64,000 nt of DNA from assembly GCF_003931875.1 (NCBI RefSeq), contig NZ_CP034245.1, positions 496,001 to 560,000 on the forward strand. Direction: 5' to 3'. This DNA comes from Microbacterium sp. 10M-3C3. Its GTDB lineage: Bacteria > Actinomycetota > Actinomycetes > Actinomycetales > Microbacteriaceae. Within the stretch, counting starts at the first letter, position 1. Every line of letters begins with the position of its first letter. This document shows, one piece after another, positions 2,587-19,682 of this stretch. Under the pieces are notes generated by a model. That model was not told the origin of the DNA. It saw only the letters and a list, made by a program, of their open reading frames with translations, and searched no databases. A program made the position numbers and the translations under genes.

Positions 2587-3576
2587 TCAGGCGGGGACGG
2601 CGGCACCCTCGAGGATCGGCCGCAGCACCTTCTGCACGTACCATCCGCTGACCATCGTGCTCTCGGCAGGATGGGGGCTCTGGTCGGACTCGACGACGAT
2701 CCAGCCGCGGTAGCCGTGCTCGGCGAGCGCGCCCACGAAACCCTCGAAGTCCACGAGCGCACGCTCGTCGCTCGGCTCGTAGAACCAGCGGAGGATGCGG
2801 CGGGCCCCGCCCTCGGTCTTGATGAACTGCTCGGCGTGCGGGGTACTGGCCTCCGCGTCGTCGACCGTTTCGCGCGCGTCCTTCAGCTGTACGTGCACGA
2901 CCCGGTCCGCGTGGGCACGGTAGAACGCCACGGGGTCGATGCCCGCGATCGCGTACTCGGCGGTGTCGATCGCGAGGCCCACCGTCGCGGCATCCGTCGC
3001 GGCGAGGAGACGCTCGATGCCGTCACCGAGACGCAGCGCCGAGAGGAAGTCGACATGCAGGCCGAGCTTCACGCCGTCGGCGGCGATCGCCGCGCCGACG
3101 GCGTTCCACAGGGTCGCGAGCACGCCGATCTGCTCGTCCGACAGCACACCCGTCTGCCACGCCGAGGGTGCGGCCCGCACGACCAGCACGTCACCGCCGA
3201 GACGGTGGACGGCGTCGGCGAACCAGCGGGCCGTGCGGACGATCTGGTCCACCGATGCCGCATCGAGCGGGTCGGGGCCGCGCCCCATCTCGACCTCGAA
3301 CCCGACGGCGGGATCGTAGACATAGCTGCTGACGGCCTCGATGGCGCACGCGGCGAGCACGTCCCTGAACTCCTCCACCGAGCCGTAGAGGTCGGCGAGC
3401 TCCTTGGGGGAGCCGAGCGGCTCCCATGCGCCGAAGCTCACGGCGGTGAGTTCGATCCCCGCGAACCCGCTGATCGACGCCGTCTTGAACGCCCTCTCGT
3501 GCTCACGCTTGCGCACGAACGAGTCGATGTTGGTGTCCCACTGATTGATGGCGTAGGCCCAGCGCACGTCGCTCAT
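2587..3576 (-). CDS. Sugar phosphate isomerase/epimerase (TIM barrel)
   Basis: A 329-residue TIM-barrel protein starting at ATG 3576, which overlaps the upstream stop by four bases. An AAGGGGCGG ribosome site precedes the start. Likely metal ligands are in LHVDFLSAL (H174, D176), LAIDTAEYAI (D204), VHVQLKD (H228) and VVESDQSP near the C-terminus. The first position carries Asp where most relatives have Glu, which may indicate a different reaction or substrate. It is distal in the minus-strand operon headed by the C-glycoside deglycosidase-like pair. A role in isomerising the sugar released from C-C cleavage is inference. Confidence 0.86.
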   Translation of the reverse strand: MSDVRWAYAINQWDTNIDSFVRKREHERAFKTASISGFAGIELTAVSFGAWEPLGSPKELADLYGSVEEFRDVLAACAIEAVSSYVYDPAVGFEVEMGRGPDPLDAASVDQIVRTARWFADAVHRLGGDVLVVRAAPSAWQTGVLSDEQIGVLATLWNAVGAAIAADGVKLGLHVDFLSALRLGDGIERLLAATDAATVGLAIDTAEYAIAGIDPVAFYRAHADRVVHVQLKDARETVDDAEASTPHAEQFIKTEGGARRILRWFYEPSDERALVDFEGFVGALAEHGYRGWIVVESDQSPHPAESTMVSGWYVQKVLRPILEGAAVPA

Positions 3577-4544
3577 CGAGCCGCCCCTTCGTTGTAGATG
3601 CCGTCGAGAACGTTCTTCGCGTACCAGCGGGCGATCGCGGTGCTCTCCGCATAATCGCCGCCGAGCTTGTCGGCCTTGTCGTGCTCGACGCTGATCCAGC
3701 CCGTGTAGCCGTGGTCGCGCACGGAGCGCACCATCGCCTCGAAGTCGACGAGGCCCTCGTCGGTGCCCATCTCGTAGAACCACTTCTCCGTGGTCTTGGC
3801 CGACACTTCGGCGTCGGGGAACATCCGGTAGTCCTCGTTCGTGTCCTTATACCGCGTGTCCTTGAAGTGGAACCCGGTGACCCGCTCGTGGTGCGCCTCG
3901 TACACGCCGACGGGGTCGACGTCGGCGATGCAGTGCTGCGCGGTGTCGACGAAGAACTTCACGTAGCGCGGATCGGCGTAGGAGTAGAACCGATCGATCT
4001 GATCGCGCGTGCGGATGCCGGCGTAGAACTCGTGATGGCACGTGAGGTTGACGCCGTACTGCTGGGTCAGCTCGCCCACCTTCCCCCAGATGTCGGCGGC
4101 GTGCTTCAGGCCGTCGTCGGGCACCCCCGCCTCGTCGAAGTACCGCGACCCCGGCATGACGATGATGTTGTCAAGCTGGATGCCCGACCACATGTCCATC
4201 GTGCGCTGGAAGTCCTCGAGGATCGTCGCGTGCGTCGCCGGCACCTCGGGGGCGTAGCGGTCGGGGGTGTAGTACACGCCGTGGAACGTGTTCACGATGC
4301 GCTCGAGGCCCTGCTCCTGCACGAACTCCTGGTAGTTCGCGACCGAGCCGTACTGCTCGAAAATCTGCCAGATGCGGAAGTCGAACGTGTCGATCGCGTC
4401 GAAGCCGACCGCGGCCACCTGCTGGAGGAAGCGCTTCATGGCCACGCGCGACTGCCACTGGTCGTAGGGGCCGGCCGGTCCCTGTGCGCGCCAGTGGTCC
4501 ATGTAGCTCCACTTGATGGGGGGTCGTGCGACGTCCGTGGTCAT
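3573..4544 (-). CDS. Sugar phosphate isomerase/epimerase (TIM barrel)
   Basis: A 323-residue protein with a full AP-endonuclease-2-type barrel. Candidate metal ligands are E172 in HHEFYAG, D200 in FFVDTAQH, H226 in GFHFKDT and E287 in ISVEHDK, a complete E-D-H-E set. It starts at ATG 4544, overlapping the previous gene by ATGA, and ends in an ATGA overlap with the next, so it sits in a tightly coupled four-gene operon. It is related to the protein encoded next to it but is not a close duplicate. It could be a 3-keto-sugar isomerase or dehydratase of the IolE type. It could also be a second candidate large subunit for the DUF6379 protein, although the adjacent 4541-5572 product is the more likely partner. 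Confidence 0.86.
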   Translation of the reverse strand: MTTDVARPPIKWSYMDHWRAQGPAGPYDQWQSRVAMKRFLQQVAAVGFDAIDTFDFRIWQIFEQYGSVANYQEFVQEQGLERIVNTFHGVYYTPDRYAPEVPATHATILEDFQRTMDMWSGIQLDNIIVMPGSRYFDEAGVPDDGLKHAADIWGKVGELTQQYGVNLTCHHEFYAGIRTRDQIDRFYSYADPRYVKFFVDTAQHCIADVDPVGVYEAHHERVTGFHFKDTRYKDTNEDYRMFPDAEVSAKTTEKWFYEMGTDEGLVDFEAMVRSVRDHGYTGWISVEHDKADKLGGDYAESTAIARWYAKNVLDGIYNEGAAR

Positions 4545-5572
4545 CGTGCTCTCGCTTCGTCGGGATGGGGATGTGTGCTGAGGCCGTCTGCGAGGGCGTC
4601 GACCGCGAGCGCCAGGTGACGGCGCGTCATATCCCACGGGTCTTCCTCGAGCCACTCGTGCCCGCCCCACTCGCTGCACAGCGTGCCGGCGAACCCGGAG
4701 GCCCGCAGCGCGGGAGCGAGCTCGCGGATCGGGGCCGAGACGCGGTCGTCCGCGTCGTCGAGGTCCCAGAACTTCAGATGCACCGCGCCCACCCACGGCA
4801 GGACGTCGGCGATCTCCGCGACACGGGAGCGCCCGAAGCGCACCACGAGATCCATGAAGAGCGTGTGCACCGCCGGCGGCACGCGCCCCGCGCCGAGCTC
4901 GGCGAACACGGCACCCTGCGTGGCCGGGTCGGCCCAGTCGGTGCGCAGTCGACCGACGAGGTCCGCCGAGACGCCGCCGCGCTCGAGTTCGGCGAGATAG
5001 GTCTCGGGAAGCGCCGGCATGAGCATGCTGATATCCAGCAGCAGGCGGAGCCGCGGGTGATCGCGACGGATGATGTCGTCGTACGCCGCCGCGTGCGCCG
5101 CATCCGCCGGCGTCTGCCGACCCTGAACCTCCTCGAAGAGGATCAGGTCGAGTTCGTCGAGGACGGGAAGCAGCCGATCGACGAGCTCGGCGCCGGGCTG
5201 GCCGATCGGCACGCGGATGCCTGCGGCGCCGACCGCCGCGGCCGCGTGCAGCTGGGGGAGGAGGAACGCGTAGCGCTCCTCCTCGGTGCGACGGCGCGGG
5301 CCCGACGTCCATTCGTCGATGCTGCCGCCGACGATGCTGACGCGCCCTGCCCGCTTCTCGAGCGCGGCGCGGAAGTCGCCCGTCTCCGAGGGCGACGGCG
5401 CGGGGAAGCCGCGCCACATCTGGCCCGGCTCGATCTCGATCGTGTCGCTCACGCCGCGGTCGATGAGGGAGAGGGCCAGCTCGGGGGCCGCTCGCGCGGC
5501 CCGGATCACCTCCGGCGTGACGTTGAACGCGCTCGCGGCGAGCGTCCAGCCGGCGGGAAGGGTCGCGGTCAT
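4541..5572 (-). CDS. C-glycoside deglycosidase alpha-subunit-like TIM barrel (CarB-like)
   Basis: A 343-residue TIM-barrel protein from ATG 5572, with GGGAG upstream. Likely metal ligands are E147 or E148 in LFEEVQG, D180 in LLLDISMLM, H265 (or H236) and E301 in LCSEWGGHEW. It directly follows a DUF6379 small protein. In characterised CarBC/Dgp-type enzymes a Mn-dependent TIM-barrel alpha subunit pairs with a DUF6379 beta subunit to cleave the C-C bond of 3-oxo-C-glycosides. The pairing and the CarA-like oxidase encoded at 18061 support this call. No alignment could be run, so the assignment rests on family knowledge and gene order. The alternative is a sugar isomerase of unknown substrate. 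Confidence 0.68.
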   Translation of the reverse strand: MTATLPAGWTLAASAFNVTPEVIRAARAAPELALSLIDRGVSDTIEIEPGQMWRGFPAPSPSETGDFRAALEKRAGRVSIVGGSIDEWTSGPRRRTEEERYAFLLPQLHAAAAVGAAGIRVPIGQPGAELVDRLLPVLDELDLILFEEVQGRQTPADAAHAAAYDDIIRRDHPRLRLLLDISMLMPALPETYLAELERGGVSADLVGRLRTDWADPATQGAVFAELGAGRVPPAVHTLFMDLVVRFGRSRVAEIADVLPWVGAVHLKFWDLDDADDRVSAPIRELAPALRASGFAGTLCSEWGGHEWLEEDPWDMTRRHLALAVDALADGLSTHPHPDEARAR

Positions 5573-5587
5573 CGGGATCTCCCGGGG

Positions 5588-5995
5588 TCAGGCGACGTCG
5601 CGCGAGACCGAGGGCACCGCGGCATCGGGGACGAGGTCGGCGTCGGCGGAGAACGGCAGGCGCAGCGGCCCGGCGCCCCCGGCGTCGAGGTAGGGGATGA
5701 GCAGGGAGAACGACACCGAGATCCGGTGCGCGCCGCGTCCGAGCGGCGTGCGACCGCGTATGACGAGACGGTCCTGGAGGAACCACCAGCCCCGCTCGAA
5801 CGCCAGCGCAGACGGCGTCAGCGTGCGGTCGCCGACGGCGACGAGGAGGGAGGACGGCGCAGCCCCGTCGATCGCGACGGCGAGATCGACGAGGCTCGCC
5901 AGCGGGAGGGAGCGGATCCACGGCAGCGACAGCCGCAGCGCGAATCCCTCGGGTGTCGTGCGCAGCGCATCCTCGCGCAGTGCGGTCAGGGTCAT
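5588..5995 (-). CDS. C-glycoside deglycosidase beta-subunit-like protein (DUF6379, CarC-like)
   Basis: A 135-residue protein without signal or membrane segment, predicted mostly beta strand (for example LRLSLPWIRSLPL, RGWWFLQDRLVIRG, RISVSFSLLIPYL). This size, strand pattern and position before a TIM-barrel gene match the DUF6379/C-glycoside deglycosidase beta subunit family, which completes the active site of the alpha subunit. It starts at ATG 5995 with a strong GAGGAAG site. It is the first gene of the minus-strand operon, behind a good sigma-70-type promoter at 6044-6073. If the family call is right, the operon's primary role is deglycosylation of C-glycosides. Confidence 0.7.
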   Translation of the reverse strand: MTLTALREDALRTTPEGFALRLSLPWIRSLPLASLVDLAVAIDGAAPSSLLVAVGDRTLTPSALAFERGWWFLQDRLVIRGRTPLGRGAHRISVSFSLLIPYLDAGGAGPLRLPFSADADLVPDAAVPSVSRDVA

Positions 5996-6043
5996 GGCGG
6001 CACACTTCCTCGTGGCGGAGCGGCCCGCGCCGCTTCTGCGGAC

Positions 6044-6073
6044 AATCTAACGAGAAAGGTCGAAAAAAAGCAA
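6044..6073 (-). promoter_or_regulatory. Predicted promoter of the deglycosidase operon
   Basis: Read on the minus strand, TTGCTT (6073-6068) is followed by an 18-base T-rich spacer and TAGATT (6049-6044). This is a good match to a housekeeping -35/-10 pair in an otherwise GC-rich genome. It lies between the ROK gene stop and the DUF6379 gene, giving a leader of about 40 bases that carries GAGGAAG. Confidence 0.65.
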
Positions 6074-6080
6074 AAGTGCG

Positions 6081-7370
6081 TCAGGCAACCAGATCGACCG
6101 CGGGAACGGACAGCGCGCGCGGGCGACCGTCGGCGAACCAGCGCGGGAAGGTGATGTCGAAGAGCTGCTCGCGCGCGAGGTCCGCGCCGCCGCGCAGGGG
6201 CTCGCGCTGGTCGTTCACCGACTGGACGATCGCGAGGTCGCGCGTCGCGAGCGGGAGCGAGAGCTCGTACACGCGCTGACGGACCTCGGCGAGGAAGAGC
6301 TCGCCCGCCGACGCGACCGCGCCGCCGACGACGATGACGCCCGGGTTGAACATGTTCACCAGCGCCGCGACCGACTCCCCGACCACGCGTGCGGCGCGCT
6401 GCATCAGCGAGATCGACAGCGGATCGCCGTTCTCGGCGGCCTTCGCGATCGCCTCCGGGTCGATCGTCGTGCCGCGCTCGCGCATGGCCGCGAGCGCGCC
6501 GGTCGCGCCTTCGTCCAGCGCGGCCTCGGCGTCGCGGACGAGCGCCCACCCGCCCGCCACCGCCTCGAGGCAGCCGATCTTGCCGCAGCGACAGGCCGCC
6601 TCGGAGCCCGGCACGCGCACGTGGCCGATGTCGCCCGCGGCGCCGTTCGCGCCGCGGTGCAGGCGTCCGCGCGAGAGGAGGCCCGCGCCGATGCCGGTGC
6701 CGACCTTGCAGTAGATGAGATCCGGATGCTCCGCGCCACGGCGCGCCCGCTCACTGCACGCGAGGAGGTTCACGTCGTTGTCGACCCAGACCGGGGCGCC
6801 GTATCGCTCCTCGAAGGCGCCGCGCACGTCGTAGCCGTTCCAGCCGGGCATGATCGGCGGGGCGACGGGGCGCCCGGTCTCGAAGTCGACCGGGCCGGGG
6901 AGGCCGATCACGACGGCCCACACCGGGGCGTCGTCGAGCCCGGCGAGAAGGCCGTCGACGAGCTCGGCCGCCGTGGCGAGCGTCTCCTGCGGACCGCGCG
7001 CGATGTCCCACCCCACGTGCTCGGCCGCCAGGATCGTCCCGTCGAGGTCGGTGACGCCGGCGTGGATGTGCAGCGCGCCCAGCGCGCACACGACGATGCG
7101 GCCGCGCTCCGAGCGGAAGCGCAGCGTCCGCGGCGCGCGTCCGCCCGAGGACGGACCGAGTTCGGCGTCTTCGAGGAAGCCCATCTCGACGGCGAGATCG
7201 ACGCGCTGCGACACGACGCCGCGGCCGAGGCCCGTGACCCTGCCGATCTCCGGGCGCGTGGTCGCCTCTCCGAGGCGCACCAGGTTCACGATGCGCAGCA
7301 GGCTCGTGACCTCGTCGGTTTGCGCACCGAAGCGCAGGGTGGATCCGCTAGCCATGGTCGATTTTGACAT
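6081..7370 (-). CDS. ROK family transcriptional regulator
   Basis: About 429 residues. An N-terminal winged helix (LLRIVNLVRLGEATTRPEIGRVTGLGRGVVSQRVDLAVEMG) is followed by a ROK sugar-kinase-like domain. The ROK domain has VIGLPGPVDF, WVDNDVNLLA and GTGIGAGLL, and a zinc site in ACRCGKIGCLEAVAGG (the CxCGxxGCxE pattern). Starts at 7385 (TTG), 7370 (ATG) and 7355 (ATG) are all possible; none has a good ribosome site, and 7370 is a compromise. It sits between the minus-strand deglycosidase operon and the divergent plus-strand catabolic operon, so it probably represses both and responds to a sugar or glycoside. The inducer is unknown. Confidence 0.92.
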   Translation of the reverse strand: MSKSTMASGSTLRFGAQTDEVTSLLRIVNLVRLGEATTRPEIGRVTGLGRGVVSQRVDLAVEMGFLEDAELGPSSGGRAPRTLRFRSERGRIVVCALGALHIHAGVTDLDGTILAAEHVGWDIARGPQETLATAAELVDGLLAGLDDAPVWAVVIGLPGPVDFETGRPVAPPIMPGWNGYDVRGAFEERYGAPVWVDNDVNLLACSERARRGAEHPDLIYCKVGTGIGAGLLSRGRLHRGANGAAGDIGHVRVPGSEAACRCGKIGCLEAVAGGWALVRDAEAALDEGATGALAAMRERGTTIDPEAIAKAAENGDPLSISLMQRAARVVGESVAALVNMFNPGVIVVGGAVASAGELFLAEVRQRVYELSLPLATRDLAIVQSVNDQREPLRGGADLAREQLFDITFPRWFADGRPRALSVPAVDLVA

Positions 7371-7423
7371 GACATCCGTGCCCAAGTGGCGAAACGGCGC
7401 GATCTATGGTTGATTTCTACGAA

Positions 7424-7448
7424 ACTTCAGCCGTTTTCGTGCTGAAGT
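7424..7448. promoter_or_regulatory. Inverted repeat, candidate ROK operator
   Basis: ACTTCAG (7424-7430) and CTGAAGT (7442-7448) form a perfect 7-bp inverted repeat with an 11-base AT-richer spacer. It lies between the divergent ROK and Gfo/Idh/MocA genes, 25 bases before the latter's ATG. Nearby, ATGGTCGATTT (7354-7364) and ATGGTTGATTT (7406-7416) form an imperfect direct repeat. Regulator binding is inferred. Confidence 0.5.
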
Positions 7449-7473: not shown

Positions 7474-8517
7474 ATGGCCTGGGGAGTCGGCCTCATCGGC
7501 GCGGGACCCGGAGTCGCCGCTCTGCACGCCCCCACGCTTGCACGGGTCGCCGATGACTTCCGGCTCGTCCACGTCGCCGACAGCGGCAGCGGGCGCGCGG
7601 CCGCCATCGCCGCCGCGCACGGCGCCCGCGCGTCGAGCGACGTCCAGACGCTGCTCGACGACGAGGACGTCGACGTCGTCGGCATCTGCAGTCCGCCCGA
7701 ACTGCACGCCGCCCACATCCGGGCAGCCCTGCGCGCCGGTCGTCGCATCATCCTGTGCGAGAAGCCGATCGCCACCACCGCCGACGAGGCCTGGGACGTG
7801 CTGCGCGAATGCGCCGACGCGGGCGCGCTCGTCGTGGTGGGCACGAACCACCTCTTCGACCCGCTGTGGGCGCGGGTCAAGCGTCACATCGACGCGGCCG
7901 AGGAGCGCGTGCGGACCGTGTCCGTGACCATGGCCCTCGCCCCGAACGCCCGCTACCACGCTCTCGTCACGGGCGAGGAGTCCACGCCGACCACGGCCGC
8001 GCGCCCGCCGCTGGACTTCTCCGACCCCCAGCTGTGCGCGCGCGTGGTCCGCCAGCTCGTCGTCGGCCTCGCCGTCCACGATCTGCCGCTCGTCCGCGAC
8101 CTCCTGCCCGGGTTCGAGGAGATCGTCCACGCGCGCGCGATCCCGCCGATCGGTCTCGACATCGGGCTGCGCACCGGCGGCGGGCTCGTGCGACTGAGCG
8201 CCGTCATGCTGCCCGACGGCGCCGACACGCTGTGGCGGGTCTCCGTGGGGATGGGGCGCGACCGCGTCGACCTCGACTTCCCGCCCCCGTTCGTCCACGC
8301 CGGCAGTGCGCGCGCGACGGTGCGCGACGGCTCCGGCCGGATCACGACCTTCCCGGTCGAAGACATCGACGGGTACGAGGCCGAGTGGCGCGCGCTCGCC
8401 GCCCTTGCGCGCGGCGACACCACGATGGAGTACGCCGAGCTGCTCGCCGATGCCGAGGAGGCGATCGCGATCGCGGATGCGGCGGCCGAGGCCGTGCGCG
8501 CGGGGATGACGTCGTGA
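7474..8517 (+). CDS. Gfo/Idh/MocA family oxidoreductase
   Basis: A 347-residue dehydrogenase from ATG 7474 with GAGGAGG at 7463-7469. The N-terminal nucleotide-binding segment is GVGLIGAGPGVAALH, and the family motif CEKPIATT lies near residue 100. The C-terminal half is the usual alpha/beta substrate domain, but the region that normally carries the GG-x-x-x-D-x-G signature reads VVGLAVHDLPLVRDLLPG, with His-Asp replacing the usual pattern. It heads the plus-strand operon facing the ROK gene and overlaps the next gene by GTGA. It probably acts on the oxidised sugar or glycoside of this cluster. Whether it is the C3 oxidase or a downstream reductase cannot be told. Confidence 0.9.
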   Translation: MAWGVGLIGAGPGVAALHAPTLARVADDFRLVHVADSGSGRAAAIAAAHGARASSDVQTLLDDEDVDVVGICSPPELHAAHIRAALRAGRRIILCEKPIATTADEAWDVLRECADAGALVVVGTNHLFDPLWARVKRHIDAAEERVRTVSVTMALAPNARYHALVTGEESTPTTAARPPLDFSDPQLCARVVRQLVVGLAVHDLPLVRDLLPGFEEIVHARAIPPIGLDIGLRTGGGLVRLSAVMLPDGADTLWRVSVGMGRDRVDLDFPPPFVHAGSARATVRDGSGRITTFPVEDIDGYEAEWRALAALARGDTTMEYAELLADAEEAIAIADAAAEAVRAGMTS

Positions 8518-9284
8518 CGTCCCCGAGCGCCGTCCCCGTCGTCACGGGCCTTCCCCGCTACGCGGCGGCGGTCGCCGAGCTCGCCCCCCGGGTACGCCTC
8601 GTCCGCGAGCGGCGAGGCGCCGTGGTCGTGGTCGATGGCACGCGGCGCTGGTGGCTGGACGCCGCGGAAGCCGCATCCGCCGGCGCGGTCGGCGTCGTCG
8701 TGGCCCAGCCGCGCCTCGCGCCGCCCGCCGACGCCCTCGAGGATGTGCGGATCCCGCTCGTGATCGCGCGGCGGCTGCTGCGCGCCGATGTGGGCGCGGA
8801 TGCCGGGCCCGACCGGGCGCCGCGACTGATCGTCGCCGATGCCGACGGGCCCGCCCACGGCCTCGCGACGTGGCTGCGCGACGTCGTCGGATGGTGCCGC
8901 GTCCTCGCCGGCGGCCCGGCGCGCATCGACCGCGCGGCGCGCTCGGCCGGTGCCCTCCTGGCCGCCGGGTCCACGCCCGCGGGGGTGCCGGTGTCGATCA
9001 CCGTCACGACGCGGGACGTCGGCGCCGCAGCGGCGTGCGCGCTCGTCGGCATCGGCGCGGAGCGCACCGAGGTCTCGTGGGACGAGGCGGCCGGCAGCGT
9101 CGACGTCGCCCGCATCGACGTCGACGGTCGGCACACCGCCGTGCCGTCCCGCGAGGGCGCCGAGCGCCTCGCGCTGCGGCGCGCGCTCGGGGCCGTGGTG
9201 GCCGGATCGGCGCCGGACGACCTCCGCGACCTGCGCGACGACGCCCGCACGGTCGAGGACATGCTGCGCATCGCCGGTTCATAA
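8514..9284 (+). CDS. Conserved hypothetical protein, oxidoreductase-associated
   Basis: A 256-residue protein from GTG 8514, translationally coupled (GTGA) to the Gfo/Idh/MocA gene. I do not recognise a specific family. It is Ala/Arg/Asp-rich, with alternating hydrophobic strands (VRLVRERRGAVVVVDG, AGAVGVVVAQPRLA, RLIVADADG) reminiscent of a Rossmann-like layout. Its end, REGAERLALRRALGAVVAG, recalls the C-terminal helix of Gfo/Idh/MocA proteins. No GxGxxG or CEKP motif is present, so it could be a degenerate oxidoreductase paralogue acting as partner of the preceding enzyme. No signal peptide or membrane segment is seen. Confidence 0.75.
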   Translation: MTSPSAVPVVTGLPRYAAAVAELAPRVRLVRERRGAVVVVDGTRRWWLDAAEAASAGAVGVVVAQPRLAPPADALEDVRIPLVIARRLLRADVGADAGPDRAPRLIVADADGPAHGLATWLRDVVGWCRVLAGGPARIDRAARSAGALLAAGSTPAGVPVSITVTTRDVGAAAACALVGIGAERTEVSWDEAAGSVDVARIDVDGRHTAVPSREGAERLALRRALGAVVAGSAPDDLRDLRDDARTVEDMLRIAGS

Positions 9285-10407: not shown

Positions 10408-10492
10408 CGCCGTGCGGGCGGCCCGCGAGGGCCGCCCGCACCGCCCGACCCCTGACACCGACTCGACGACGAGCCACGGAGACCCCGACGAC

Positions 10493-12507: not shown

Positions 12508-13641
12508 ATGACCGCAGTGAACACCGTCGCGATCGTCGGAAGCGGAGTCGCGGGACTCGCGACCGGCATCCAGCTGGCCAAGGCCGGCGTCCAGGTCGAC
12601 CTCTTCGAGGCCAAGCCCGAACTGGGCACGGGTGGCTCGGGCATCTCCCTGCAGGGCAACGCCCTGCGCGTGTTCGACCAGCTCGGCGCGTGGGACGACA
12701 TCCGCGCGGCCGGCTACGCCTTCGAGGGGCTGAACCTGCGCGCTCCCGGCCCCGGCGCGCCGATCGTCGCGTCACTGCCCGACGTCAAGACCGGCGGCCC
12801 CGACTACCCCTCCGCGATGGGGATGCCGCGCGCCGAGCTCGCCCGCATCCTCTTCGAGCACGCGCAGCGCGCCGGCGTGCGCTTCCACTTCGGAAGCCGC
12901 GTCACCGCGATCACGCAGACCGACGAGGCCGTCGAGCTCGTCGTCGACGGAACACCGGCCGGCACGTTCGACCTCGTCGTGGGCGCCGACGGCATCAACA
13001 GCACGGTGCGCGAGCTCATCGGCATCACGACCAAGCCCGAGCCGACCGGCATGGGCATCTGGCGCACCTTCGTGTCCCGGCCCGCCGAGGTCGAGCGCAG
13101 CGAGCTCTACTACGGCGGCCCGGTCTACATCGCGGGCTACACCCCGACCGGCGCGAACAGCATGTACGCCTTCCTCGTCGAGAAGGCGCAGGATCGCACC
13201 GCGGTCGACGCCGACGAGGCGACGCGCATCATGGTGGAGGAGTCGCGCGCGTACGACGGGCCCTGGAACAGCATCCGGGCCGACCTCGAAGGCGGCGCCG
13301 CAGCGAACTACACGTGGTTCACGAAGCACATCGTGGATGCGCCGTGGAACCGTGGCCGGGTGGTCGTGATCGGCGACGCGGCGCACTCGTGCCCTCCCAC
13401 GATCGCGCAGGGCGCTCCGCAGGGGCTCGAAGACGCCGCGGTGCTGAGCGAGCTCCTGGTCGAGCGGGACGCGCTCGACCAGGAGCTGTGGGACACCTTC
13501 CACGCGCGGCGGATCCCGCGCGCCACCGCGGTCGTGCAGGCGTCCGTGCAGCTCGGGCAGTGGCAGATCGACGGCGACCGCGACGCGGACGCGGGCGGAC
13601 TCATCTTCGGCATCGCACAGCAGATGGCGGTGCCGGCATGA
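12508..13641 (+). CDS. FAD-dependent aromatic monooxygenase (PHBH/salicylate hydroxylase-like)
   Basis: A 377-residue group A flavoprotein monooxygenase. The N-terminal FAD motif is VAIVGSGVAGLATGIQLAKAG. The DG motif FDLVVGADGINSTVR and the GD motif VVVIGDAAHSCPPTIAQG are both complete. It starts at ATG 12508 after a 45-base gap with GTGAGG. Such enzymes use NAD(P)H and O2 to hydroxylate phenolic rings, producing catechols for extradiol cleavage, so it may prepare the substrate for the dioxygenase encoded at 9391. The stop overlaps the amidohydrolase start (ATGA). Confidence 0.93.
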   Translation: MTAVNTVAIVGSGVAGLATGIQLAKAGVQVDLFEAKPELGTGGSGISLQGNALRVFDQLGAWDDIRAAGYAFEGLNLRAPGPGAPIVASLPDVKTGGPDYPSAMGMPRAELARILFEHAQRAGVRFHFGSRVTAITQTDEAVELVVDGTPAGTFDLVVGADGINSTVRELIGITTKPEPTGMGIWRTFVSRPAEVERSELYYGGPVYIAGYTPTGANSMYAFLVEKAQDRTAVDADEATRIMVEESRAYDGPWNSIRADLEGGAAANYTWFTKHIVDAPWNRGRVVVIGDAAHSCPPTIAQGAPQGLEDAAVLSELLVERDALDQELWDTFHARRIPRATAVVQASVQLGQWQIDGDRDADAGGLIFGIAQQMAVPA

Positions 13642-14645
13642 GCGTCACCGACGTGCACGCCCACGTGCTGCTTCCCGGCATGCACGCCGAGGTGGAGCGG
13701 CGCGCCCCCGAGCTCGTCGCCGAGGCCGCCGATCTGGAGCGTCGCCGCAACGGCGTCGCGAGTCTCCAGGCCTCGGGCGCGATGGTCGGCGCCCGGATCC
13801 CGCAGCTCACCGACGTCTCGGTGCGTCTGGCGGCGATGGACGCGCGGGGCGTCGACCGCCAGTGGGTGAGCGTGTCGCCCAACCACTTCTACCCGTGGGC
13901 GCCGGAGGGGCTCGCGGTGTGGGTGGCGAGCGAGACGAACCGGCTCGTCGCCGAGCACGTCGCGCAGGCGCCCGACCGGCTCACCGGCCTCGGCGTCGTG
14001 CCGCTGCAGCACCCCGACCGGATCGTGGAGTACCTCGACGACGCCGTGCTCGGCCGCGGCCTCGCGGGGGTGGAGATCTCCTCCTTCGCGGGCGACGTCG
14101 AGTTGTCCGACCCGCGGCTCGAGCCGTTCTGGGCGCGCGCCGCGGAGCTGAAGGCGGTCGTGTTCCTGCACCCCTTCGGATGCAGCCTCGACGAGCGGCT
14201 CGATCGCTTCTACCTGTCCAACACGGTCGGGCAGCCGGTCGAGAACGCCGTCGCGCTGTCGCACCTGATCTTCGCCGGCGTCCTCGACCGGCACCCCGAG
14301 CTGCGCCTCGTCGCGGCCCACGGCGGCGGCTACCTCCCCACCGCGATCGGGCGCAGCGACCGCGCATGGCACGTGCGCCCCGAGGCGCACGGGTGCGCGC
14401 ACGCGCCGTCGACGTACCTGCGGCGGCTGTGGTTCGACACCGTCGTGCACGACGCCGGTGCGCTGCGCGCCCTCGTGGAGATCGCGGGTGCGTCGCAGGT
14501 CGTGCTCGGCAGCGACTTCCCCTTCGACATGGGACTGGACGACCCGGCGGCCTTCGTGCGCGATGCGGGCCTCGACGCCGACGTGGTCGCGGCGATCCTC
14601 GGTGGCAACGCCGACGCGCTGCTCGAGGCGAAGGTGCACGCATGA
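13638..14645 (+). CDS. Amidohydrolase family protein (amidohydrolase 2; ACMSD/decarboxylase-like)
   Basis: A 335-residue PF04909 TIM-barrel enzyme. It opens with the metal motif DVHAHV (H7, H9), followed by VVFLHPFG, LVAAHGGGYLP (His ligand/catalytic) and VLGSDFPFDMG with the catalytic Asp. Relatives include aminocarboxymuconate-semialdehyde decarboxylase and gamma-resorcylate-type decarboxylases, so removal of a carboxyl group from an aromatic acid or a ring-cleavage product is likely. It is coupled by ATGA overlaps to the genes on both sides. Confidence 0.92.
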   Translation: MSVTDVHAHVLLPGMHAEVERRAPELVAEAADLERRRNGVASLQASGAMVGARIPQLTDVSVRLAAMDARGVDRQWVSVSPNHFYPWAPEGLAVWVASETNRLVAEHVAQAPDRLTGLGVVPLQHPDRIVEYLDDAVLGRGLAGVEISSFAGDVELSDPRLEPFWARAAELKAVVFLHPFGCSLDERLDRFYLSNTVGQPVENAVALSHLIFAGVLDRHPELRLVAAHGGGYLPTAIGRSDRAWHVRPEAHGCAHAPSTYLRRLWFDTVVHDAGALRALVEIAGASQVVLGSDFPFDMGLDDPAAFVRDAGLDADVVAAILGGNADALLEAKVHA

Positions 14646-15628
14646 GGATCGCGCGCTGGCGCGACGGCGCCGACATCGGCGAGGGCTTCGTCATCGGCAA
14701 CCGCGTCGTGCCGTTCCCCGACGGGCTGACCGTCGCGCACGTCCTGTCGCAGGGCCTGCCGGCCGTCGCGGGACTCGCCGCGCGCGTCGAGGGCGAGCCG
14801 GGCACCGCCCTCGCGGACGTCGAGCTGCTCGCGCCGGTCGTCCCCGCGGCCATCCGCGACTTCGTCGCGTTCGAGGAGCATGTCGAGGGCATCAGCGCCT
14901 CCGTCGACGGGCGCGGCGAAGTCGTGCCGGAGTGGTACCAGGCGCCGACGTTCTACTTCACGAACCCCCACACGGTCCTCGGCCCCGGGCAGAGCGTGAC
15001 CCCTCCCGAGACGGAGCGGCTCGACTTCGAGCTCGAGGTGGCGGTCGTCCTCGGCGCGGTCGAGGGATCGGACGGCGTGAACCTCGCGCCCGAGGAGGCC
15101 GCCGGCCACATCTTCGGCTACACGATCATGAACGACTGGTCGGCGCGGGATCTGCAGGCGCGGGAGATGAAGGTGCGCCTCGGACCCGCGAAGGGCAAGG
15201 ACTTCGGCACCGCGCTGGGCCCGTGGATCGTCACGGCCGACGAGATGGCGGAGTACCTCGACGCCGAGGGCTTCCTCGAAGTGCGCGCCGAGGCGCGGAT
15301 CAACGGCGAGCTCGTCGGCGACGACCTCGTGTCGAACATGGGCTGGCCCTTCCCCGAGCTCGTCGCGTACGCGTCGCGCAACGCGCGCGTCGTACCCGGC
15401 GACGTGCTCGGCTCGGGCACCGTCGGAAACGGCGGGTGCCTCGGCGAACTGTGGGGACGCCGCGGCGCCCTCACACCCCCGCCGCTGCAGCCGGGTGACG
15501 TCGTCTCGTTCACGGTCGAAGGGCTCGGCGAGCTCTCCGGCACGGTCGGCGAGCCGGCGCCCGCGCCCCCGGTGCACGCGGCCCGGCCCCGCCCGCGCCG
15601 GCGACACCGCGACGACGCCGGAGCATGA
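14642..15628 (+). CDS. Fumarylacetoacetate hydrolase family protein
   Basis: A 328-residue protein, the second FAA-hydrolase of the cluster. It has a substrate-binding segment near residues 75-100 (FVAFEEHVEGI, where relatives often have an H-x-x-H type pattern), DFELEVAVVLG with the E-x-E ligands, YTIMNDWSARDLQ, GPAKGKDFGTALGPWIV and GSGTVGNG. The conserved DFGTALGPW block resembles longer actinobacterial FAA hydrolases. The last 25 residues (APPVHAARPRPRRRHRDD region) are Pro/Arg-rich and unlikely to be part of the fold. It overlaps both neighbours by four bases. Confidence 0.91.
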   Translation: MRIARWRDGADIGEGFVIGNRVVPFPDGLTVAHVLSQGLPAVAGLAARVEGEPGTALADVELLAPVVPAAIRDFVAFEEHVEGISASVDGRGEVVPEWYQAPTFYFTNPHTVLGPGQSVTPPETERLDFELEVAVVLGAVEGSDGVNLAPEEAAGHIFGYTIMNDWSARDLQAREMKVRLGPAKGKDFGTALGPWIVTADEMAEYLDAEGFLEVRAEARINGELVGDDLVSNMGWPFPELVAYASRNARVVPGDVLGSGTVGNGGCLGELWGRRGALTPPPLQPGDVVSFTVEGLGELSGTVGEPAPAPPVHAARPRPRRRHRDDAGA

Positions 15629-16389
15629 GCGAGGGCCTGCGCGACCGCACGGTGGTGGTCACCGGGGGCGCGCGCGGCCAGGGTCTCGCCGTGGTGCAGC
15701 GCCTGACCGCGGCGGGAGCGCGCGTGGTCGCCGTCGACCTCGACGACGCGCCGGAGCTCGGCGTGCCCGGAGTGCGGTACCGCGCGCTCGACGTCGCCGA
15801 CGAGGCCGCGTGGCGCGCGCTCGCCGACGAGCTGCGCGCCGACGGGCACGGCCCGGTGCGGGGCCTCGTGAACAACGCGGGCATCACGCATCGGGCGCGC
15901 GTCGGCGAGGTGGAGCGGGCGGCGTGGGAGCGGGTGCTCGCGGTGAACCTCACCGGGCCGCTGCTGGCGATCCAGGCGCTCGCGCCGCTCATGGCGGCGG
16001 GGTCGTCGATCGTCAACATCGGATCGGTCGCGGCGCTGAGCGGCCACTACCCCGTGGCGTACACGGCGTCGAAATGGGGTCTGCGCGGGCTCACCCACGC
16101 CGCCGCGGGCGAGCTCGGACCCCGTGGCATCCGGGTGTCCATCGTGCACCCCGGCTTCATCGAGACGGACATGACGGCGTCGGCGCCCGACGCGATGCGC
16201 ACGGCGCAGCGGCTCATCACACCGCTCGAGCGGACGGGCGAGCCGGACGACGTCGCGGCGGCGGTGGAGTTCCTGCTCTCGGATGCCGCGCGCTTCGTCA
16301 GCGGCGCCGAGCTCACCGTCGACGGTGGTCAGGCCTCGTCGGCCGGAGCGAAGGTGCTGTCGGATCGCCTGCGGGATTCTTCCGACTGA
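15625..16389 (+). CDS. Short-chain dehydrogenase/reductase (SDR)
   Basis: A 254-residue classical SDR. It has the cofactor motif TGGARGQG (TGxxxGxG), the structural NNAG motif, the Ser of IGSVAALSG and the catalytic YTASK (YxxxK). The end SGAELTVDGGQASS is typical of the FabG-like branch. It is coupled to the preceding FAA hydrolase by ATGA. It would reduce or oxidise a hydroxyl or ketone of an aglycone or sugar intermediate with NAD(P)H. Substrate unknown. Confidence 0.93.
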   Translation: MSEGLRDRTVVVTGGARGQGLAVVQRLTAAGARVVAVDLDDAPELGVPGVRYRALDVADEAAWRALADELRADGHGPVRGLVNNAGITHRARVGEVERAAWERVLAVNLTGPLLAIQALAPLMAAGSSIVNIGSVAALSGHYPVAYTASKWGLRGLTHAAAGELGPRGIRVSIVHPGFIETDMTASAPDAMRTAQRLITPLERTGEPDDVAAAVEFLLSDAARFVSGAELTVDGGQASSAGAKVLSDRLRDSSD

Positions 16390-16404
16390 TTCCGACAGAA
16401 GTGA

Positions 16405-16410
16405 TACGAT
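16405..16410 (+). promoter_or_regulatory. Possible -10 element before the MFS gene
   Basis: TACGAT follows two direct TTCCGAC copies (16380-16386 and 16390-16396) with 10-base spacing, framed by TTCT and AGAA. The arrangement looks like a promoter with a regulator site, but no convincing -35 is present. Confidence 0.35.
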
Positions 16411-16488
16411 GACACTGACGTCGGGGCCCGCTCAGGGTCCGATCGCCGGGGCGCAGGGGCCGCGGCGGCACACTCCGTCGCGTCGACG

Positions 16489-16504
16489 GCCCGATCGATC
16501 GGGC
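16489..16504. promoter_or_regulatory. Perfect 16-bp palindrome upstream of the MFS gene
   Basis: GCCCGATCGATCGGGC is a perfect palindrome ending 9 bases before ATG 16514. It may be an operator or a leader hairpin that limits access to the ribosome site. If the ATG at 16409 were the true start, it would be coding instead. Confidence 0.4.
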
Positions 16505-16513
16505 ACCCTTCGC

Positions 16514-18064
16514 ATGACTCTGTCACCGGTGCGCTTGCGCCTTCTCGTCGTCTCCCTCCTCACGGTGTCGTTCCTCGGCGCCCTCGACCACACCGTCGTC
16601 TCGACGTCACTCGCCACGATCGCGGGCGAACTCGGCGCCCTCGAGCACATGAGCTGGATCATGGTCGGCTACACGCTGTCGGCCACCGTGATGCTGCCCG
16701 TCCTCGGCAAGCTCGGCGACGTGCTGGGGCCCCGGCGCGTCTTCCTCGCGTCGCTCGCGCTGTTCCTGGCCGCCTCCCTCGTGTGCGGGCTCGCGCCCTC
16801 GCTCGGGTGGCTCATCGCCGCCCGCGTCGTGCAGGGCCTCAGCTCCGCCGGGCTGCAGCTGATGTCGCAGACGATCATCGCGCGCGTGACGAGCCCGCGG
16901 CAGCGCCCGCGCTACATGGCGATCATCGGCGCGGCGTTCCCCATCGCGATCGTGCTCGGACCCGTGCTGGGCGGTCTCATCACGGACTTCTGGGGCTGGC
17001 CGTGGGTGTTCTGGATCAACCTGCCGGTCGGCGTCGCCGCCCTCGCCCTGGCCCTCGTCGCCGTGCCGCATCTGCCCGGCGGCGCGCATCCGCGCTTCGA
17101 CGTCGCCGGCGCCGTGCTGTTCAGCGGCGCCCTCCTCGCCCTCGTGCTGGGGGTCACCGCCGTCGGCGAGGGGCTCCTCGTCGCGTCGCTGCTGTGCTTC
17201 GCCGCAGCCGCGGCGTGCCTCGTGGCCTTCGCCTTCGTCGAGCGCCGTACGACCGCGCCGATCATCCCGCTGCCGCTCCTGGGCAACCGCACGATCGCGG
17301 CATGCCTCGCACTGTCGACGATCATCGGCACCGGGCTGTTCGCGATCACGAGCTTCCTGCCCACCTACTTCCAGATGGCCTACCGCACGAGCGCCACGGT
17401 CTCGGGCATCGTGCCGATTGCGACGGTGCTCGGCATGCTCGTGAGCAACCTCGTGACGGGGTCGCTCGTCTCGCGCACCGGTCGCTACCGGCCGTACCCC
17501 ATCGCCGGCACCGCGCTGGCCGCCGGCGGTCTCCTCGTCATGGCGGTGCTTCCGGTCGGGCTGCCGCTGTGGGTGCCGGCCGCCGTCATGGCCGTCGTCG
17601 GCATCGGCACGGGCGCCTTCATGAACCTCATCTTCGCGCTGGTGCAGTCGTCGGCTCCCCGCGAAGACCTCGGCATCGTCACCGCGACCGCGAACCTCGT
17701 GCGCCAGGTCGGCTCGACGCTCGGCACCGCCGTCATCGGGGGCGTCGTCGGCTTCGGCGTGGCGCTGGCGCTGCCGGCGGGCCTGGATGCGGCGACCCTG
17801 ACGCCGCAGAGCGTCCACACCGCCTCCGGCGCCGTGCAGGACGCGGTGGCCGGCGTCTACCACGACGTGTTCGCACCGATCTTCCTGGCCCTCGCGGTCG
17901 TGTACGCGCTGGGGATCGTCGCGGCCGTGCTGCTCCCTGGCGGCCGGCTCTCCGACGAGATGCCCGCCGCAGCTCCTGCCGACCCGCAGACCGCCACCGA
18001 ACCCCAGACCCCCACCGAACCCCAGACCGCTGACGCGGCCCCCGTATCGAGGAGAAACCCATGA
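16514..18064 (+). CDS. MFS transporter, DHA2 family (14-TM drug/aromatic exporter type)
   Basis: About 516 residues from ATG 16514. An upstream in-frame ATG at 16409 would add 35 Arg/Pro-rich residues. The DHA2 features are LDHTVVSTSLATIAGEL in TM1 (the L-D-x-T-x-V-N/S pattern), LGKLGDVLGPRRVF as motif A, and VLGPVLGGLITDFWGWPWVFWINLPVG as motif C. About 14 hydrophobic segments follow. The C-terminal tail has a TATEPQTPTEPQT repeat. This family exports drugs and aromatic compounds by proton antiport. In this cluster it could export a toxic aglycone or intermediate, or import the glycoside. It overlaps the oxidase gene by four bases. Confidence 0.9.
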   Translation: MTLSPVRLRLLVVSLLTVSFLGALDHTVVSTSLATIAGELGALEHMSWIMVGYTLSATVMLPVLGKLGDVLGPRRVFLASLALFLAASLVCGLAPSLGWLIAARVVQGLSSAGLQLMSQTIIARVTSPRQRPRYMAIIGAAFPIAIVLGPVLGGLITDFWGWPWVFWINLPVGVAALALALVAVPHLPGGAHPRFDVAGAVLFSGALLALVLGVTAVGEGLLVASLLCFAAAAACLVAFAFVERRTTAPIIPLPLLGNRTIAACLALSTIIGTGLFAITSFLPTYFQMAYRTSATVSGIVPIATVLGMLVSNLVTGSLVSRTGRYRPYPIAGTALAAGGLLVMAVLPVGLPLWVPAAVMAVVGIGTGAFMNLIFALVQSSAPREDLGIVTATANLVRQVGSTLGTAVIGGVVGFGVALALPAGLDAATLTPQSVHTASGAVQDAVAGVYHDVFAPIFLALAVVYALGIVAAVLLPGGRLSDEMPAAAPADPQTATEPQTPTEPQTADAAPVSRRNP

Positions 18065-19629
18065 CCGACACCCCGACCGTCGTCGTCGTCGGAAGCGGCC
18101 CGATCGGCGCCGCCTACGCGCGCGAGGTGCTGGAGAACCATCCGACGGCGCGCGTCGTCATGTTCGAGGCGGGGCCGCAGCTCACGCCCGTCCCCGGCCA
18201 GAGCGTGCGCAACATCGCCGACCCGGAGGAGAAGGAGCGCGCCCGCGAGATGTCGCAGGGCCCGCAGGCCGGCGCGCATCGCGAATCGCTGGGCCTGCCG
18301 GCCGGCGTCGTCGTGGAGGGCATGTTCACCGCCCGCGGCGGCACGCACCTGATCGACTTCGGCGGGGAGGGCAGCGGCCACGCTCCGAGCTTCCCCGCCG
18401 CTGCCGCATCCACCAACGTCGGCGGCATGGGCGCGCACTGGACGTGCGCGATCCCGCGCCCGCACCAGTCCGAGAAGATCTCGTTCATCCCGGACGACGA
18501 GTGGGAGACGCTCATCGGGCGGGCGGAGACCCTGCTGCACGCGCAGTCGGCCGCGTTCGCAGACTCCCCGATCGGCGGCGCGATCCGTGCGCTGCTCGAC
18601 GAGGAGTTCGGCGCCGAGCTCCCCGAGGGCCGCGGCGTCGGCACGCTTCCGGTCGCCGGAGACCCGCAGCCCGACGGCTCGATGGTGTGGGCCGGCGCCG
18701 ACGCCGTGTTCGGCCCGCTGCTGGACGCCGACTCGCCGCTGTCGCGTCGGTTCCAGCTGCACGACCTCTCGCTCGTGCGCGAGGTCGTGCGCGACGGCGA
18801 CCGCGTGACGGGCGTCGTCGTGGAGGACCTGCGCACGCGCGAGACGCGCACCGTGGCGGCCGACGCGGTCGTCGTGGCCGCCGACGCCTTCCGCACGCCG
18901 CAGCTGCTGTGGGCCTCGGGCATCCGCCCCGCCGCCCTCGGCCGCTACCTCACCGAGCACCCGGTCGTCATCGGCACCGTCGCCCTCGACGCCGACCGCA
19001 TGTCGCGCCACGCGACCGAGGAGCAGCTGGCCGAGGAGCTGGAGCGGCGCGCGCAGAACGCCGCCGACCCGGTGGCGGCGGTCAACCGCATCCCCTTCTC
19101 CGAGCCCGGCCACCCGTACTCGCTGCAGGTGATGTACGCCGAGCGCCCGCCGTTCGAGCTCGACCCGTCGAACCCGCACGCGGGCAACAAGTGGGGCTAC
19201 GTCAACATGGGCTACGGCATGCGCAAGCGGCCGCGCGTGGAGGACGGCGTCACGTTCGACGACGACGAGCGGGACTACCGCGGCTTCCCGAACATGACGA
19301 TCGAGTACGCGCTCACCGACGCCGAGCAGGCCGAGATCGACGAGGCGACCGAGCGGCTGCGCCGGGCCGGTGCGGCCCTGGGCGCGTTCGTCGCGGGCCC
19401 GCGCCTGCTCCCGGCGGGCTCGAGCCTGCACTACCAGGGCACGACGCGCATCGGGCAGGCCGACGACGGCACGTCGGTCGCCGACGCGTACTCGCGCGTG
19501 TGGGGCGTGGAGAACCTGTGGGTGGGCGGCAACGGCACGATCCCCACCGCCACGACCGTGAACCCGACGCTCATGAGCGTGGCGATCGCCGTCCGCGGCG
19601 CGCGCGCCCTCGCCGCGTCGCTCGCCTGA
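18061..19629 (+). CDS. GMC oxidoreductase, pyranose oxidase/C-glycoside 3-oxidase-like (CarA-like)
   Basis: A 522-residue FAD enzyme. The dinucleotide motif is GSGPIG at 11-16. TNVGGMGAHWTCA at about 118-130 corresponds to the pyranose-oxidase block whose His carries FAD in fungal enzymes (here H126). The catalytic His-Asn pair is visible as H457 in LHYQGTTRIG and N501 in TVNPTLM. The family includes pyranose 2-oxidases and bacterial glycoside 3-oxidases such as CarA, which oxidises C3 of the sugar of C-glycosides before CarBC cleavage. ATG 18061 follows GAGGAGAAACCC and overlaps the MFS stop. With the deglycosidase-like pair encoded at 4541-5995, this is the main evidence for a C-glycoside pathway. 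Whether FAD is covalently bound is unknown. Confidence 0.87.
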   Translation: MTDTPTVVVVGSGPIGAAYAREVLENHPTARVVMFEAGPQLTPVPGQSVRNIADPEEKERAREMSQGPQAGAHRESLGLPAGVVVEGMFTARGGTHLIDFGGEGSGHAPSFPAAAASTNVGGMGAHWTCAIPRPHQSEKISFIPDDEWETLIGRAETLLHAQSAAFADSPIGGAIRALLDEEFGAELPEGRGVGTLPVAGDPQPDGSMVWAGADAVFGPLLDADSPLSRRFQLHDLSLVREVVRDGDRVTGVVVEDLRTRETRTVAADAVVVAADAFRTPQLLWASGIRPAALGRYLTEHPVVIGTVALDADRMSRHATEEQLAEELERRAQNAADPVAAVNRIPFSEPGHPYSLQVMYAERPPFELDPSNPHAGNKWGYVNMGYGMRKRPRVEDGVTFDDDERDYRGFPNMTIEYALTDAEQAEIDEATERLRRAGAALGAFVAGPRLLPAGSSLHYQGTTRIGQADDGTSVADAYSRVWGVENLWVGGNGTIPTATTVNPTLMSVAIAVRGARALAASLA

Positions 19630-19636
19630 CCCAGTT

Positions 19637-19682
19637 GCGTGAATCGGCGGCTACCCCTGCCCGGGTAGCCGCCGATTCACGC
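19637..19682. terminator. Long perfect hairpin between convergent genes (bidirectional terminator)
   Basis: Arms 19637-19656 and 19663-19682 are perfect 20-base reverse complements separated by CTGCCC. The hairpin lies exactly between the convergent CarA-like and GH13 genes, with no T-tract on either side. Such a long perfect stem is unusual for a terminator and could be a transcript-protecting or mobile-derived element. Confidence 0.75.

Follow-up and report, generated by a model that had tools for sequence, protein, structure and literature searches.

The locus between positions 2,587 and 19,682 of a 64,000-nucleotide stretch of the genome of Microbacterium sp. 10M-3C3 raises the question of whether a single bacterial gene cluster can lead from an intact C-glycoside, through the removal of its sugar, to the cleavage of the aromatic ring. 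This stretch, referred to here as the window, corresponds to positions 496,001 to 560,000 of contig NZ_CP034245.1 (G000:C1:496001-560000 of a single-contig genome of 3.39 Mb), and the coordinates given below are window positions unless another locus is named. The closest named homologs come for the most part from Microbacterium as well. The initial annotation considered the locus to be one complete cluster, in which CarA-, CarB-, and CarC-like proteins release the aglycone and a meta-cleavage pathway destroys it, and all of the gene families that it named were recovered where it had placed them, by matches to Pfam, NCBIfam, or PDB profiles. The genetic coupling of 3-oxidation and elimination of the sugar to ring cleavage is well supported, being found in Microbacteriaceae, Arthrobacter, and, in a different gene order, Deinococcus, whereas the completeness did not hold, in that the window contains half of the system and the canonical CarA/CarBC genes lie upstream. 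As far as gene content and homology allow a function to be assigned, the locus is probably the aglycone-degrading half of a polyphenol-glycoside catabolic island that is conserved in Microbacterium and its relatives.

The aromatic module lies on the + strand, and begins with a type I extradiol dioxygenase resembling catechol 2,3-dioxygenase (9391–10407; PF00903, E 2.4e-23), which scores 247 bits against the catechol 2,3-dioxygenase equivalog TIGR03211 and does not reach its threshold of 320. This gene is followed by a first FAA hydrolase (FAH1, 10493–11467, searched as 10490–11467; PF01557, E 1.8e-58), a cyclase-family hydrolase (11464–12462; PF04199, E 9.8e-22), a flavoprotein monooxygenase (FMO), which is an FAD-dependent aromatic hydroxylase of the FAD_binding_3 type (12508–13641; PF01494, E 3e-39; NF005313, 378 bits, cut-off 372), an ACMSD-like decarboxylase/amidohydrolase of the Amidohydro_2 family (13638–14645; PF04909, E 1e-41), the best solved relatives of which are ACMSD decarboxylases (4ign_A, E 1.8e-45), a second FAA hydrolase (FAH2, 14642–15628; PF01557, E 2.1e-50), and an SDR oxidoreductase (15625–16389; PF13561, E 3.3e-54). 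The extradiol dioxygenase, FMO, and FAH families thus adjoin one another, as in a catechol-type meta-cleavage pathway.

The genes for the handling of glycosides lie on either side. On the − strand, a TIM-barrel gene (4541–5572) encodes a homolog of the solved alpha subunits of the C-glycoside deglycosidases (CGDs), with 7dnm_A (AgCarB2) as its best PDB match (E 2.3e-21), which bears out the CarB-type kinship proposed for it. This divergent paralog is designated here as Q-type. The adjacent gene for a small (beta) subunit of the DUF6379/CGDB kind (5588–5995, −) ends 15 bp before the start of the TIM barrel. The proposed DUF6379 kinship of its product was upheld by the match to 8umc_B (E 6.9e-8), by a profile built from 26 fused homologs, and by the fold of one fused homolog, while the score against PF19906 (CGDB), of 21.7 bits, remained under the gathering cut-off of 27.6. 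The two subunits are fused in 26 of the 120 Q-type sequences listed, in forms of about 460–500 amino acids (aa), and a Foldseek search with the fused homolog returned CGDs as its top matches, with the beta part matching 8qvc_B and 7dnm_B. At the other end of the module stands a gene for a GMC glycoside 3-oxidase (18061–19629, +; 8qve_A, E 1.1e-116), which is clade II-like.

These genes travel together. Of 198 Microbacterium genomes sampled evenly from a larger group, 44 match the CGD of the window at E <= 1e-15, and 41 of these, with a match of at least 55% identity, are counted as Q-type carriers, after the removal of G044, G100, and G166, in which the matches are to other CGDs only. The dioxygenase is present in all 41 (in 38 within 10 kb, in one at 34 kb, and in two on other contigs), as is the clade II-like GMC oxidase (within 20 kb in 38 and on another contig in three), while in the sample as a whole the dioxygenase is carried by 65 genomes and the clade II-like GMC oxidase by 45 (matches of at least 69% identity). 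The Fisher p-values of 7.9e-26 for the association of the Q-type CGD with the dioxygenase and 3.0e-38 for that with the GMC oxidase overstate the independence of the genomes, which are related. A survey of 299 genomes of the family recovered the Q-type CGD in 15, accompanied by the GMC oxidase in 15/15 and the dioxygenase in 14/15, within 15 kb in 11 cases and on another contig in G485. The two samples overlap in G000, G034, G043, G045, G066, and G076, of which G000 (the present genome) and G066 carry the Q-type CGD. The co-occurrence of these genes is far beyond chance, and it recurs in many genomes, with varying order and content.

The conserved island extends over some 33 kb, from a set of fused CGDs to the GMC oxidase of the window, which holds half of it. 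The upstream stretch (loci L005 and L006, G000:C1:466001-497000) contains genes for a PobA-like hydroxylase and PcaR-like, PcaI, PcaJ, and PcaF-like proteins with an MFS transporter, two fused CGDs of 433 aa (L006 3022-4323) and 492 aa, a LysR regulator, a sugar ABC transporter, and a second GMC oxidase carrying a loop of the CarA type, as well as two split CGD alphas, two CGDB betas, a SnoaL-like protein, and a Gfo/Idh oxidoreductase. Four canonical CGD units accompany the divergent pair of the window in this genome, and the canonical CarA/CarBC units lie about 1.5–15 kb upstream of the window. The kinship of the 433-aa protein is based on a 24% tblastn match, together with the His and Glu motifs seen by eye. 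Some 32 kb upstream of the window there is also a gene (L094 17397-18377) which, judged by eye, looks like PaaA, and which suggests the presence of phenylacetate catabolism genes.

The aromatic module behaves as a unit, even apart from the island. In 20 stand-alone loci (L071-L090), from 19 of the 24 dioxygenase-bearing Microbacterium genomes that have no Q-type CGD plus a second copy in G145, the dioxygenase, FAH1, FMO, and ACMSD-like genes are present in 20/20, FAH2 in 18/20, and the cyclase in 13/20. A LysR gene 62–75% identical to that of the island is found in 18 of these 20 stretches, and a PcaF-like gene of >70% identity in nine. In a further set of 80 named loci, the best 80 of 189 in a single scan of a genome collection (nine of them with shortened flanks), the cyclase, FMO, and FAH2 genes lie near the dioxygenase in 64, while a CGD alpha or GMC gene occurs in the flanks of 27, including a CGD alpha in 20 (Q-type in 18 and another CGD type in 10). 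Fourteen of the 80 have a prolyl-oligopeptidase (POP)-like gene but lack the ACMSD-like one, which is also the situation in Deinococcus; this variant includes loci L133, L140, L142, and L169 in Kineococcus, L147, L149, L159, L171, and L175, mostly in Leifsonia, and L091 in Deinococcus. A 47% identical dioxygenase, surrounded by FMO, FAH, and SDR genes, occurs on pAtK84c of Rhizobium rhizogenes K84 (L093 11992-12990), in a stretch in which, as far as it was read, no CGD is annotated, and this locus appears to be a proteobacterial relative of the module.

Arrangements of independent appearance connect the same functions in other lineages. On plasmid pDAETH-1 of Deinococcus aetherius, genes for a sugar ABC transporter, a CGD alpha, DUF6379, a GMC oxidase, a dioxygenase, a cyclase, an FAH, a peptidase-like protein, two flavoproteins, SMP-30, and an SDR run in one direction. 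The dioxygenase is 65.6% identical to that of the window, the CGD alpha is canonical and has a full-length match to the solved D. aerius protein 8qvc_A (E 2.9e-225), and the GMC oxidase is nearer to the upstream oxidase of the island (49%) than to that of the window (45%). The main genes of the island are carried by Arthrobacter globiformis NBRC 12137 and Pseudarthrobacter siccitolerans 4J27, the sources of AgCGD1/2 and PsG3Ox, where they comprise the dioxygenase module, a clade II-like GMC oxidase, a ROK regulator, the Q-type pair, canonical CGDs, a clade IV GMC oxidase, ABC genes, a LysR, and a fused CGD; the CGD2 alpha found in A. globiformis NBRC 12137 agrees with the solved AgCGD2 chain. 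The ThuA gene and the IolE-like pair of the window have no match in either of these two strains. In Arthrobacter sp. cf158 and Agromyces terreus, CGD and GMC genes of other types stand beside the module.

The coupling could nevertheless be the product of a catabolic hot-spot, in which the module serves an unrelated substrate and came to lie beside glycoside genes by chance. The occurrence of the module without a Q-type CGD in many genomes (24 of the 65 dioxygenase-bearing Microbacterium genomes) is compatible with this, as are the 53 of the 80 named loci that have neither a CGD nor a GMC gene in the fetched flanks, a proportion that is an upper bound because the CGDs of Arthrobacter lie about 15–30 kb off. 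When 12 genomes were searched whole, 10 proved to have a canonical CGD, which in several of the Arthrobacter group is 15–30 kb from the dioxygenase. A chance association is, however, improbable, given that the coupling recurs in Deinococcus with a different order and divergent genes, that the module stands next to other types of CGD in Arthrobacter sp. cf158 and Agromyces terreus, and that the islands and the stand-alone modules share a type of LysR.

Alongside these stand-alone modules, a number of other observations weigh against the interpretation of a conserved island. Some Q-type carriers of the family survey have a distant dioxygenase (72 kb from the Q-type CGD in G467 and 787 kb in G339), and G426 has none. 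Among the seven other islands that were mapped, and read in part, G100 is without the Q-type pair and its aromatic module consists of the dioxygenase and a 45% FAH only, the Q-type pair is unmatched in G166, FAH1, the cyclase, and FAH2 are unmatched in G094, and the IolE-like pair is matched in G094 alone. The pcaIJF genes lie close to the island in this genome alone, as against the seven others without them, with 42–51% counterparts in G038, and the remaining module genes of D. aetherius are distant from those of the window (FMO 31%, FAH 39%, and cyclase 28%).

The second part of the question is which enzyme removes the sugar. The initial annotation gave the C-glycoside step to the CarB/CarC-like pair of the window, and this assignment is not supported by the active site. 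The metal ligands are kept in the Q-type proteins (E148, D180, H265, K267, and E301, equivalent to E147, D179, H269, K271, and E305 of AgCGD2) in 120/120 listed sequences, and the metal-binding residues are also kept in 5/5 further members, which are 34–54% identical. By column counts, the catalytic His149 of AgCGD2 is replaced by Gln in 120/120 listed sequences, the window's own included (Gln150, codon 5123–5125, −), and its partner Glu307 by Gly in the same 120/120 (Gly303, codon 4664–4666, −). The same Gln and Gly are found in 5/5 of the more distant members, as well as in the copies of A. globiformis and P. siccitolerans. In the beta subunit, Tyr39, in the numbering of PuCGE (DgpB), is Ile in the window (Ile27, codon 5915–5917, −, by counting on the DgpB alignment) and in 26/26 fused homologs. 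Two further candidate losses were set aside: Asn248 to Arg, where two alignments conflict on the column, and Tyr17 to Phe (120/120 listed), where a Tyr is kept in one distant member. In many public records, the Q-type homologs are labelled “restriction endonuclease subunit R”, apparently through the propagation of a misannotation.

Because His149, Glu307, and the Tyr39 of the beta subunit are absent, the pair is, by its predicted active site, no canonical C-glycoside deglycosidase, and the same replacements rule out a canonical CarBC in the window. It might still work as a CarBC-type deglycosidase that is fed by the GMC oxidase of the window, and its clear homology, the same alpha/beta pairing, sometimes fused, the CGDs at the top of the fold search, and the invariance of the metal ligands and Lys271 would agree with this. 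The loss of Glu alone may be tolerable, in that the PuCGD mutant E301A, at the position of Glu307 of AgCGD2, retains 49.8% of its activity (PMC8563793; this and the other articles cited by PMC number are represented here by parts of their texts), and the clade II enzyme MPOx also accepts the C-glycoside aspalathin (PMC11673046). A working deglycosidase is, however, an improbable reading of a family in which His149 is Gln throughout, when PuCGD H143A retains 10.4% (PMC8563793), and in which Tyr39 is replaced by Ile, when PuCGE Y39F loses >99% of C-glucoside cleavage (PMC10628242).

The loss of both acid/base residues could also mean that the pair has no catalytic role and serves as a sensor or scaffold. 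The five metal-binding residues are, however, invariant across the listed sequences and the members of 34–54% identity, and the strict new Gln and Gly at the lost sites do not have the appearance of drift, so this is very improbable.

The GMC oxidase of the window has the expected domains (PF00732 and PF05199) and the catalytic His/Asn pair (SSLHYQG and TTVNPT), and was initially described as pyranose-oxidase/CarA-like. Its substrate loop, RPPFEL at residue 362 (context AERPPFELDP), and those of its orthologs (NPPFPL, VPPFQL, and TTPFPM, the last in the context AETTPFPMEP in P0226) point elsewhere: the clade IV (CarA-type) loop LDASPVPL is absent, while the upstream GMC oxidase, which is 46% identical to that of the window, has LDASPIPLA. 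The first extant clade II enzyme to be characterised, MPOx of Microbacterium sp. 3H14, has the loop NPPFQL at 362–367, and is 40% identical to the clade IV paralog of the same genome; it prefers phlorizin and acts less on aspalathin, with negligible activity on the other glycosides tested, including carminic acid, mangiferin, isovitexin, homoorientin, and puerarin (PMC11673046, in the part covered). The flavinylation motif of the window's enzyme is GAHW, against the GAWH printed for clade II (PMC10807413), and an outright assignment to clade II was held back on account of this printed motif. Neither the PPFxL loop nor GAWH was found in ten more distant Microbacterium GMC oxidases. The oxidase of the window resembles clade II, and its proposed part in the C-glycoside step is not supported.

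The pair may belong to an O-glucoside elimination branch, although this is a tentative assignment, held with rather less than even confidence. The strongest objection is that the O-glycoside eliminase of Agrobacterium tumefaciens, AtOGE, requires His134 (PMC10628242), so that a His-less O-glycoside eliminase would be without precedent. In a bolder form, which is possible but doubtful, the pair would represent a metal-dependent 3-keto-glycoside lyase of a new class, in which the His base and the oxyanion Tyr have been replaced, and which is linked to the clade II-like oxidase, giving O-glucosides or dihydrochalcones a separate entry into an otherwise C-glycoside island that then destroys the freed aromatic ring.

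Alternatively, the pair could process the released sugar, as a hydratase or isomerase of 2-hydroxy-3-keto-glucal that cleaves no glycoside. Each of the five other mapped islands with the Q-type pair has at least two further CGD alphas, so that another C-glycoside lyase seems redundant, and the A. tumefaciens operon holds a putative hydratase of the sugar-isomerase type (PMC10628242). This role is unlikely, however, for a pair that has kept a CGDB-type beta and that tracks the clade II-like oxidase in the genus and family samples alike (41/41 and 15/15), and the IolE-like genes, where present, are better candidates for the hydratase. There is also a small chance that the pair is none of these, that is, neither an O-glucoside lyase, a sugar-fragment enzyme, a C-glycoside lyase, nor a non-catalytic protein.

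Under the reading of a conserved island with an O-glucoside branch, the pathway would begin with the oxidation of the glucose C3 of plant glycosides by the GMC oxidases, the clade IV CarA-like enzyme upstream and the clade II-like enzyme in the window, as their characterised homologs suggest. Mn-dependent CGD units would then eliminate the aglycone, with the canonical cleavage of C-glycosides being the task of the upstream units rather than of the window pair, to judge from the catalytic residues. The window pair may act after the clade II-like oxidase, likeliest on 3-keto O-glucosides of the dihydrochalcone or flavonoid type, using a base that is not His, a step that would carry the same reservation as the branch itself. 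Hydration and reduction of the 3-keto-glucal by Gfo/Idh and IolE-like enzymes could yield glucose. The FMO would hydroxylate the aglycone and the extradiol dioxygenase would open it, with the FAA hydrolases, the cyclase, and the ACMSD-like enzyme accounting for its cutting and decarboxylation, and the remaining ring could, in this genome, enter the beta-ketoadipate route by way of the upstream PobA- and PcaIJF-like genes. The substrate, and the passage from intact C-glycoside to central metabolites that the initial annotation proposed, are inferences.

At the left edge of the window, a gene of the AP_endonuc_2 family that resembles a sugar isomerase and is represented by its 3' portion (35–685, +; PF01261, E 7.3e-30; the full reading frame starts upstream, L006 17684-18685) precedes a ThuA-domain gene (718–1590, +; PF06283, E 7.7e-27), which recurs in several mapped islands, and a Gfo/Idh/MocA oxidoreductase that is a candidate sugar reductase (1599–2579, +; PF01408, E 1.8e-25), both of the latter lying just to the left of the span 2587–19682. 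Two IolE-like sugar isomerases/dehydratases follow, the first a candidate 3-keto-glucal hydratase (2587–3576, −; PF01261; TIGR04379, 84 bits, below the cut-off of 290) and the second at 3573–4544 (−; PF01261; TIGR04379, 76 bits, also below). Between the small subunit and the dioxygenase are a ROK-family regulator (6081–7370, −; PF00480, E 2.7e-55), a second Gfo/Idh/MocA oxidoreductase (7474–8517, +; PF01408, E 2.6e-24), and a 256-aa protein of no known family (8514–9284, +), which has no Pfam or NCBIfam match, is 31–46% identical to its matched relatives, and is noted for its synteny, travelling with the preceding Gfo/Idh gene in many related islands. An MFS transporter of the DHA2 type (16514–18064, +, with a possible alternative start upstream at 16409; PF07690, E 4.9e-54) has the DHA2 efflux model TIGR00711 as its top-scoring match (201 bits, below the cut-off of 230).

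Immediately after the oxidase lies a maltose alpha-D-glucosyltransferase of the trehalose synthase type (19700–22303, −; TIGR02455, 858 bits, cut-off 719). Between 54000 and 64000, the GC content falls from about 0.73 to 0.62–0.64, and genes match Mrr_cat, DUF3644, and the PADLOC candidates PDC-M38A, PDC-S19, and HEC-07; this region is likely an acquired defence island. A tRNA-linked insertion was considered and dropped, as no tRNA was found in the window.

C-deglycosylation, pyranose and glycoside oxidases, and meta-cleavage are each known separately. What appears to be new, as far as the searches show, is the conserved joining of deglycosylation with ring cleavage and the His-less CGD subfamily, which provides a natural experiment on the CGD residues that are dispensable. 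An incomplete literature search, covering titles and the openings of abstracts, found no study joining C-deglycosylation to aromatic ring cleavage, and the terms “dioxygenase” and “ring cleavage” are absent, by term search, from the main texts of PMC8563793 and PMC10646112. Sugar uptake has been proposed as the purpose of C-deglycosylation in soil bacteria (PMC8563793, in part). The linkage of deglycosylation genes to ring-opening genes in two phyla, including the strains used for the enzymology, makes it probable that the aglycone, too, serves as a carbon source. The fate of the glycosides of plant flavones, xanthones, and dihydrochalcones in the soil becomes testable by single deletions.

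The nearest known systems differ from the present locus in different respects. The GMC, CGD alpha, and CGDB beta proteins upstream of the window are of the same kinds as those of the CarA/CarBC system of Microbacterium sp. 5-2b and of the AgCGD1/AgCGD2 and PsG3Ox clusters, and in the AgCGD1/AgCGD2 and PsG3Ox strains the aromatic module sits in the same island. The proteins of Deinococcus aerius (8qvc, 8umc, and 8qve, the last of which we take to be its oxidase) include the best PDB matches of the small subunit of the window (8umc_B) and of its GMC oxidase (8qve_A), and the near-identical genes of D. aetherius share an operon with a dioxygenase, a cyclase, an FAH, and an FMO. The Deinococcus system differs in a CGD that keeps both the His and the Tyr, another gene order, a POP-type hydrolase, and no annotated ACMSD-like gene. 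According to the title of a 2024 study by Furlanetto, the D. aerius cluster acts on C-glucosyl flavonoids and xanthonoids.

The fused CGD of Microbacterium testaceum (8qrz and 8un2) has the beta–alpha fusion seen in part of the Q-type family, and the 433-aa upstream CGD is of like length. The fused Q-type homologs are 20% identical to 8qrz, and the whole-length superposition is poor (rmsd 18), so the model of the fused homolog gives no confirmation of the same domain arrangement. The likeness of the window's oxidase to MPOx lies in the loop, at the same residue number and with the same xPPFxL pattern, the GAHW motif setting it apart from clade II as printed. AtOGE, with its action on 3-keto-O-glucosides, performs a job analogous to the one proposed for the Q-type pair, but retains the catalytic His and lacks a beta subunit, whereas the Q-type pair has lost the His and has a beta (PMC10628242, in part). 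The fde system of Herbaspirillum and the ifc system of Variovorax, compared here by their descriptions rather than by their sequences, share with the proposed pathway the order of hydroxylation by an FMO followed by cleavage of the A-ring (PMC11069340, PMC11303751, and PMC8552027, each in part). PMC11069340 nowhere uses the term “C-glycoside”. In the same source, IfcA is described as not accepting isoflavone glycosides, which would fit an order in which deglycosylation precedes hydroxylation.

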